Positions 21,340-21,712 of a DNA stretch of 35,189 nt are shown in pieces. A program made the position numbers and the translations under genes. Origin of the DNA: Nitrososphaerota archaeon (GTDB lineage Archaea; Thermoproteota; Nitrososphaeria; Nitrososphaerales; Nitrosopumilaceae); NCBI GenBank assembly GCA_016872015.1, contig VHBK01000013.1, positions 1 through 35,189 of the forward strand, in the 5' to 3' direction. Under the pieces are notes generated by a model. The model made no database searches, was not told the DNA's origin, and worked only from the letters and a program-made list of their open reading frames with translations. Position 1 is the first letter of the stretch. Each line of letters starts with the position of its first letter.

Positions 21340-21515
21340 AGTATTTTTTTCAGCTTGGTTTTACTTAATTTTTCATTTTATAGGGCCGAGTCTGATTTTA
21401 ATGCAAAAAATTATTTCATTATATTCAGATCTTTATTGTAAAAATTCATACAAAATGTTAAATACAAAAAATTCCTATAATGATTAATGCGGAAGGATGT
21501 AAAATCCAACAAATA
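21340..21515. other. AT-rich intergenic stretch (promoters of taw1 and the ncRNA candidate)
   Basis: No ORF with coding character was found. Candidate promoters are a minus-strand TATA-like TTAAGTAAAA (around 21362-21371) about 28 nt before taw1, and plus-strand GTTAAATAC (21458-21466) and CTATAATG (21475-21482) ahead of the structured RNA. A small hairpin GGAT-ATCC (21495-21507) precedes the RNA. Confidence 0.5.
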
Positions 21516-21621
21516 GTCCGCGCGTGGCTCAGTAGAACGAAATTGTGAACCATGAACGCCTTGGGCGTTATGGAATAGAGAGGTATTCTCTCAAGTTCTA
21601 CGCTTGGGGCCACGCCCGCAC
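21516..21621 (+). ncRNA. Unidentified structured RNA, three-way junction, upstream of corA
   Basis: A GC-rich closing stem pairs 21516-21530 with 21607-21621 (13 pairs, two C-C mismatches, one G-U). After an asymmetric internal loop, GTAGAAC (21532-21538) pairs with GTTCTAC (21595-21601). Inside are two hairpins: CCAT-g-AACGCC / GGCGTT-ATGG (21550-21573, 10 bp, loop TTG) and GAGAG / CTCTC (21578-21592). The flanks are AT-rich and there is no ORF. The G-U pair favours the plus strand. It lacks 5S rRNA, SRP or tRNA hallmarks. An ACA trinucleotide sits at 21620-21622, about 14 nt from the internal loop, so an unusual H/ACA guide is possible. A corA leader is the other option. Confidence 0.7.
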
Positions 21622-21712
21622 ATTATCTCACAAAAATTATGCAGTTTGTGCAAAGTTTGTTTGCGATATCATAATGAAAACTTAAATTGAATTTTAGAGA
21701 GGTTTAGCTGAA
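21622..21712 (+). promoter_or_regulatory. corA upstream region
   Basis: The 91 nt between the structured RNA and corA hold a TATA-like CTTAAATT (21681-21688), about 28 nt before the TTG start, and GAGAGGT (21697-21703), which could act as a Shine-Dalgarno site. TAGAGAGGT here is a 9-nt repeat of a segment (21576-21584) in the RNA hairpin. Either corA has its own leaderless promoter or it is read from the RNA upstream. Confidence 0.4.

Follow-up and report, generated by a model that had tools for sequence, protein, structure and literature searches.

The gap between positions 21340 and 21712 (21340-21712) of the window, i.e., the whole analyzed stretch of 35,189 nucleotides, is flanked by taw1, a radical-SAM wyosine gene on the minus strand (Pfam domains PF08608 and PF04055), and by corA on the plus strand (PF01544). 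A 106-nt stretch within this gap (21516-21621) can be folded into a three-way junction, which raises the question whether an RNA gene is located here, on which strand, and whether it acts on its own or serves the neighboring corA. On the plus strand, folding of this stretch gave a minimum free energy of -43.1 kcal/mol (z -3.7), and none of 200 shuffled sequences was equally low. The minus strand folds as well as or better than the plus strand (z -4.95), and single-sequence folding therefore decides neither the strand nor the reality of the structure.

Distribution of the RNA family

BLAST searches of 101 relatives revealed clear copies of the element within the window's genus: 15 of its 16 other genomes have at least one, and nine of these gave two clear matches. 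Two covariance models were used: R1, built from 24 Nitrosotenuis sequences, and R2, built from 48 family sequences with a hand-written structure and including the positions of an AUG and a UAA triplet. At E ≤ 1, R1 matched 216 of 250 Nitrosopumilaceae genomes (the family as defined in GTDB), among them all 17 genomes of the window's genus, taken here as Nitrosotenuis; for good assemblies, the ratio was 121 of 131. One of the 216 genomes (G026) showed an R1 match with an E-value of 0.5 only and no R2 match at E ≤ 10. When R2 was applied to 400 genomes of the order, 210 were matched at E ≤ 0.1, every one of them from Nitrosopumilaceae, and in 40 genomes of the other families of the order, searched with looser filters, R2 found nothing below E 2.6. 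Each matching genome contains 1–6 matches. The conservation of the stems in related genomes, named in the first-pass annotation as a test of its proposal, thus extends across Nitrosopumilaceae, as judged by the covariance searches.

Within the window, the sole R2 match at E ≤ 10 is the element at 21486-21623 on the plus strand (104.4 bits, E 7e-22); the conserved unit begins 30 nt further upstream than the start at 21516 initially assigned to it. The same genome carries a second copy of the RNA, away from the corA site (C33:9223-9362; locus L082, G000:C33:7223-11362, RNA 2001-2140), and the relative G060 has copies at C1:22397-22534 and 690170-690304.

A pattern scan of named genomes gave, among the matches listed, mostly Nitrosopumilus, Nitrosarchaeum, Nitrosotenuis, and unranked Thaumarchaeota. 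Of the 80 loci taken from at least 118 matching stretches, 76 were confirmed by R2 at 73.8 bits or more, and three bacterial matches among the loci listed (Bifidobacterium, Chlorobiaceae, and Desulfuromonadales) gave no R2 match at E ≤ 1. Two of the records among the matches listed are titled Nitrososphaeraceae; in one of these, L157, the coordinates of the match are those found for G121, a Nitrosopumilaceae genome. The locus L148 (5143-5295), with a weak R2 match (E 0.02), has an intact P4 hairpin and a nine-codon frame and no TATA box at the usual place, and is perhaps a decayed copy. Viral carriage was rejected, as one P4-P2 pattern gave 0 matches in viral contigs.

The RNA is not essential to all members of the family, since six genomes of two Nitrosopumilaceae genera, g5 (G020, G041, and G056) and g11 (G026, G044, and G059), gave no R2 match at E ≤ 10. 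Five of these six carry amoA, and a search of 44 genomes detected the AmoA domain PF12942 in 38, including genomes from g5 and from two other families where R2 detected no RNA; a link to ammonia oxidation was rejected, because the presence of the RNA does not follow that of amoA. The assembly to which the window belongs (93% complete) gave no match to PF12942 (Archaeal_AmoA), which its relatives have, perhaps due to an assembly gap.

The sequence set for the analyses below combined 79 earlier hits with 62 of the 76 strong pattern-scan hits, the 14 left out being Nitrosotenuis copies already included or cut hits. After removal of L160, in which the upstream part is missing, 140 sequences (120 distinct) were obtained. 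Synteny was analyzed for 106 loci, which are part of the 140; some genomes are present twice in both sets, as they come from different collections.

Fold, strand and known RNA classes

In the window copy, the junction is closed by P1 (5' strand 21522-21530, 3' strand GGGCCACGC at 21607-21615) and continued by P2, in which GUAGAAC (21532-21538) pairs with GUUCUAC (21595-21601). These stems enclose the P3 hairpin (21550-21573), variable in sequence and length, and the P4 hairpin GAGAGGUAUUCUCUC (21578-21592), which has 5-6 bp here and a nearly invariant core. The initial model of a closing stem, a 7-bp inner stem, and two mutually compatible hairpins is confirmed, with support from covariation across the family. 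Its outer boundary needs correction: pairing from 21522 inwards is kept family-wide, and of the 24 aligned sequences just L001-L004 share the outermost pairs first proposed (21516-21520 with 21617-21621); for L005 and L006, an alternative outer pairing AACC/GGUU looks possible by eye.

In the 48 divergent sequences, the compensatory changes that had been anticipated at paired positions were found, both sides having changed in 20 of the 31 junction pairs. Standard pairs occupied 92.4% of the cells, compared with 38-47% when the partners were slid, and on none of five covariation measures did any of 500 shuffles score as high. It should be stressed that the structure was written by hand from the same sequences, so the paired percentage is biased towards it, and the shuffles and slides serve as the controls. 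P1 is paired in 95.0% of cells over its 10 modelled pairs (both-side changes in 6), P2 in 97.9% (both-side changes in 5 of 7 pairs), and P3 in 73-85%, depending on the sub-helix, with free variation accompanied by covariation and both-side changes in all 8 modelled pairs. P1 and P2 covary above a nearly invariant P1 foot, GCGU/ACGC (GCG/CGC). P4 (GAGAGGNNNUCUCUC) is almost frozen: its core GAGGNNNUCUC is present in all 120 distinct RNAs, and four of its six pairs are invariant in alignment A4. Such a frozen hairpin within a covarying fold suggests that P4 may have a bound partner. Taken together, we consider the RNA family and its fold near certain.

The strand follows from the wobble cells of the junction pairs, where G-U outnumbers A-C by 131 to 27 (83 to 27 after subtraction of the invariant P4 G-U). 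This excess, together with a promoter on the plus side (described below), indicates the plus strand, as originally favored; here too, folding alone would not have sufficed.

Could this be a known RNA in disguise, i.e., an H/ACA or C/D guide, or a divergent 5S, SRP, or RNase P RNA? The three-way junction and the ACA at 21619-21621 of the window copy speak for such a reading. In the family, an ACA lies within 12 nt of P1 in only three of the 120 distinct RNAs, and the H/ACA candidate, including the odd H/ACA-type guide suggested from the window alone, was dropped for this reason. The stated lack of 5S, SRP, tRNA, and RNase P signatures agrees with the scan against Rfam 15, which at gathering thresholds found only five tRNAs in the window and no match at 13 homologous loci; at relaxed thresholds, the scans gave either nothing over the RNA or hits no better than chance (E 1.6 or worse). 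With these results, membership in any of those classes is barely credible. A tmRNA was likewise rejected, as ARAGORN reported in the window five tRNA genes only (9292 Pro, 10366 Ala, 18889 Lys, 19062 Asp, and 22913 His).

Promoter and neighboring genes

The copies share, at an about fixed distance from the RNA, what is by its sequence an archaeal promoter, the column frequencies of which were calculated from 96 distinct upstream regions. In the window, the TATA box TTAAATA occupies 21458-21464 (-28 to -22); TWAAATA was found in 86 of the 96 regions, in 73 of them at exactly -28. It is followed by a TATA-rich element near -10 at 21476-21479 (-10 T 0.91, -9 A 0.88), and the transcription start is predicted, from promoter geometry alone, at 21486, a purine after T (-1 T 0.90, +1 A/G 0.94). 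Outside the core promoter, a T..TAA element at about -49 to -44 (approximately 21437-21442 in the window; -49 T 0.91, -46 A 0.91, -45 A 0.94) is shared by the paralogs and is possibly a regulator site.

In the main locus type (67 of 106 loci), an SDR gene is located upstream of the RNA and transcribed away from it, and a gene named p143 lies downstream in convergent orientation. The p143 product is a 143-aa protein with no Pfam match, encoded near the RNA in 59 loci (e.g., L027 and L083 of the main type), and a TFIIB gene is found near the RNA in 23 loci of this type. At 18 other loci, the RNA is adjoined by the gene for PurP, a DUF1246/DUF1297 protein. The remaining 21 loci are found elsewhere and include the corA/taw1 site in Nitrosotenuis.

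This arrangement bears on the proposal that the RNA is a cis-acting leader or riboswitch of the downstream gene, which in the window would be corA. The Nitrosotenuis copy does lie some 100 nt upstream of corA and in its orientation, and a same-strand ORF follows the RNA at a few other loci (e.g., L178 and L092). Against this, the identified downstream gene is convergent in 77 of the 106 loci, p143 (59) and PurP (18) being on the opposite strand wherever seen, and the main locus is not near corA; the RNA is thus not to be read as a corA leader, and the co-directional conserved position expected of a cis-regulatory leader or riboswitch does not occur at the two main locus types. In addition, 78 of 94 distinct tails carry a T4 tract close to where the RNA ends, compared with 42% expected by shuffling; the window copy lacks such a tract downstream of P1. 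Finally, corA is preceded by a separate TATA-like box, TTAAATT (21682-21688), which lies 31 nt upstream of the predicted TTG start and, on visual inspection, is conserved in the alignment of the genus; this box argues for a corA promoter distinct from that of the RNA. We therefore regard a leader function as highly improbable, and a leader-peptide attenuator was also rejected, as neither of the two main locus types has an operon running in the direction of the RNA. Given the convergent p143 and PurP at the main sites, the corA locus looks, from synteny, like a lineage-specific paralog site. The option of a free small RNA, raised from the window alone, gains support from the RNA's own putative promoter and from the convergent downstream genes.

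A leaderless reading frame at the foot of the junction

The gap had been described as ORF-free; overlooked at the 5' end of the RNA was a leaderless mini-ORF of nine codons, ATG CGG AAG GAT GTA AAA TCC AAC AAA TAG (MRKDVKSNK, stop), at 21487-21516 of the plus strand, which makes the label "non-coding" doubtful. Family-wide, the conserved 5' part consists of R-AUG followed by nine codons and a stop. Among the 120 distinct RNAs, the ORF has nine codons in 113 (stops: TAA in 83, TAG in 23, and TGA in 7) and eight codons in four, and the codon-10 stop is lost in three, with ORFs of ten (two RNAs) or twelve codons (one). No frameshifts between the AUG and the stop were found in these 120 sequences. 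The spacer between the stop and P1 (21517-21521, 5 nt in the window copy) varies by single bases, being 3, 4, and 5 nt long in 26, 59, and 25 RNAs, respectively (3-5 nt in 110/120).

Is the frame a coding one, or are its AUG and stop by-products of RNA motifs and of P0, a hairpin overlapping the ORF? The latter would make the element a non-coding RNA with a purely structural or regulatory role, such as an sRNA or an RNP scaffold, and this is consistent with the strong structural selection on the junction, with the scarcely conserved peptide, and with a possible URR motif. An out-of-frame UAA occurs at nt 15-17 in 78 of the 120 RNAs, and conserved UAA triplets thus need not be stops. However, the stop at codon 10 appears in three kinds, and four further RNAs stop just one codon earlier. 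Frame 0 is open through codon 8 in all 120 RNAs (no in-frame stop at codons 2-8), whereas frame +1 is closed in 100 (frame +2 has a stop in 36). Moreover, each of codons 2-9 is found in 9-14 forms, and codon 11 in 31. The codon table and the parsimony counts cover only the 113 RNAs chosen for nine codons, so that the presence of nothing but stops at codon 10 holds there by choice, the free figure being 113 of 120. On a tree built from the junction alone, with the ORF excluded, parsimony gives 19 switches of stop type; within this stop-selected set, the first base of the stop is constant, and the 5 and 14 changes at the remaining two bases are all between A and G. UGG is absent at the stop, which says little by itself, as only about 1.4 would be expected from base frequencies.

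The frame is also kept at seven divergent loci outside the model (L250-L256; six genera, E ≤ 2e-5), all of which have an ORF of 8-9 codons encoding unrelated peptides, e.g., MSKAIKYIA and MNKSANFNP; these seven are not an entirely unselected sample, since two of them (L251 and L252) are nearly the same and the positions of the AUG and the UAA are part of the R2 model. Eight-codon forms occur in separate lineages (L086/L087, L255 outside the model, and L136/L195), with a three-base gap in the ORF visible in the alignments of L086/L087 and L255, and in the ORF of L253, one inserted base is offset by one deleted base.

P0 itself might account for some of the conservation at the 5' end. It is paired in 71.2% of cells, and its paired cells and covariation score exceed those of all shuffles; its doubly changed pairs are matched by 249 of 500 shuffles, a one-column slide covaries more (0.227 vs 0.171), and two registers seem to be mixed in its alignment. 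In Nitrosotenuis, a candidate helix between the first bases of the ORF and the spacer (GCGG/CCGC) has one covarying pair and is 75% paired, compared with 81% after a +2 slide. The stop triplet could be an RNA motif URR, and nine codons are few. Weighing both sides, we find the purely non-coding reading unlikely, and consider the mini-ORF strongly supported by the alignments, its transcription and translation being presumed. With its conserved start, frame, and stop, it places a short ORF within the predicted transcript, as is typical of dual-function small RNAs.

A different question is whether the peptide matters. The RNA could be a small mRNA encoding a functional peptide of nine residues (MPKDIIPID/MRKDINPID class) and stabilized by a structured 3' UTR. 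Recurrent forms, e.g., MPKDIIPID in 21 of the 120 distinct RNAs, fit this reading, as does a mild synonymous excess in close pairs (548 vs 351.5 expected, over 986 non-independent pairs), which makes some peptide selection possible. Over codons 2-9, however, parsimony in the 113 sequences counts 88, 119, and 96 changes at the first, second, and third positions, respectively, and 15-31 amino-acid changes per codon, and unrelated peptides (MSLVIKSGD and MNKSANFNP) occur in other copies and genera. As third positions show no excess, the target of selection is read to be the start, the length, and the stop of the ORF and not its peptide, and a peptide-encoding mRNA appears quite improbable. By these counts, it is the length of the ORF that is conserved, and hardly the peptide.

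The reading that we prefer, with a probability of about one half, is that of a stand-alone regulatory RNA, translation-gated or dual-function, in which translating nine codons would matter more than the peptide produced. The parts of it supported by sequence comparison are the gene family, the covarying fold, the shared promoter, the start, frame, and stop, and the low level of peptide selection. From its own archaeal promoter, a transcript of about 130-140 nt would be produced, with the AUG almost at its 5' end. Ribosomes would load on this AUG, read nine codons, and arrive at a stop that precedes by 3-5 nt the foot of the three-way junction (P1, P2, the variable P3, and the near-invariant P4). 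A terminating ribosome covers bases 3' of the stop; with this geometry and such a short spacer, it would overlap the P1 foot and cover the first P1 base pairs, the nearly invariant GCGU/ACGC. Translation may in this way toggle the junction between being folded and being held by a ribosome; when folded, the junction would act in trans via the invariant P4, binding a protein or an RNA. Whether this amounts to a new RNA device, in which a "measuring" ORF of fixed length and unconstrained peptide sequence would serve solely to park the terminating ribosome at the junction foot, so that the RNA would report or control the translation state in trans in Nitrosopumilaceae, is a tentative idea, to which we give the lesser chance of being right.

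Among bacterial systems, Spot 42 with its SpfP ORF is reportedly also a regulatory RNA whose ORF is very short (15 aa), but the ORF is said to be leadered and the RNA to act by base-pairing; the likeness and the difference hold for Spot 42 as it is commonly described. One of the nearest archaeal parallels is sRNA154 of Methanosarcina mazei, which, according to the available part of PMC11456600, has a 5'-terminal short ORF that is leaderless (nt 4-66), was proposed to be dual-function, and encodes a 20-aa small protein called highly conserved in Methanosarcina. Both are archaeal small RNAs with a leaderless 5' short ORF; by that description, the RNA analyzed here is set apart by its nine codons, variable peptide, covarying three-way junction, and occurrence in another phylum. 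In Haloferax volcanii, sRNAs were reported to associate with ribosomes, many of them without evidence of a product, and the available part of PMC12482152 describes no family combining a conserved structure with a mini-ORF. Tan1 of marine group II (229 nt) and Yfr103 of marine cyanobacteria (290-328 nt, multi-copy) are likewise structured orphan RNAs of abundant marine microbes, but they differ in lineage and length, and the accessible text of PMC5069720 mentions no mini-ORF for them. In that of PMC2864571, the terms Nitrosopumilus, Cenarchaeum, and crenarchae- are absent.

Nitrosopumilus, Nitrosarchaeum, Nitrosotenuis, and their relatives, the hosts of this RNA, are among Earth's most abundant archaea, and in the literature searched, mainly non-subscription, little was found on their small RNAs. 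The titles and abstract beginnings covered did not describe the RNA family; it may have been noticed earlier, e.g., in marine small-RNA metatranscriptomics. It is thus apparently an undescribed RNA gene family, widespread in ammonia-oxidizing archaea. Structure-only RNA screens and ORF callers with a length cut-off can each overlook half of such a gene. A family unmatched in Rfam, with a leaderless ORF conserved in length and not in peptide, would offer a concrete route into translation-coupled RNA regulation in archaea.
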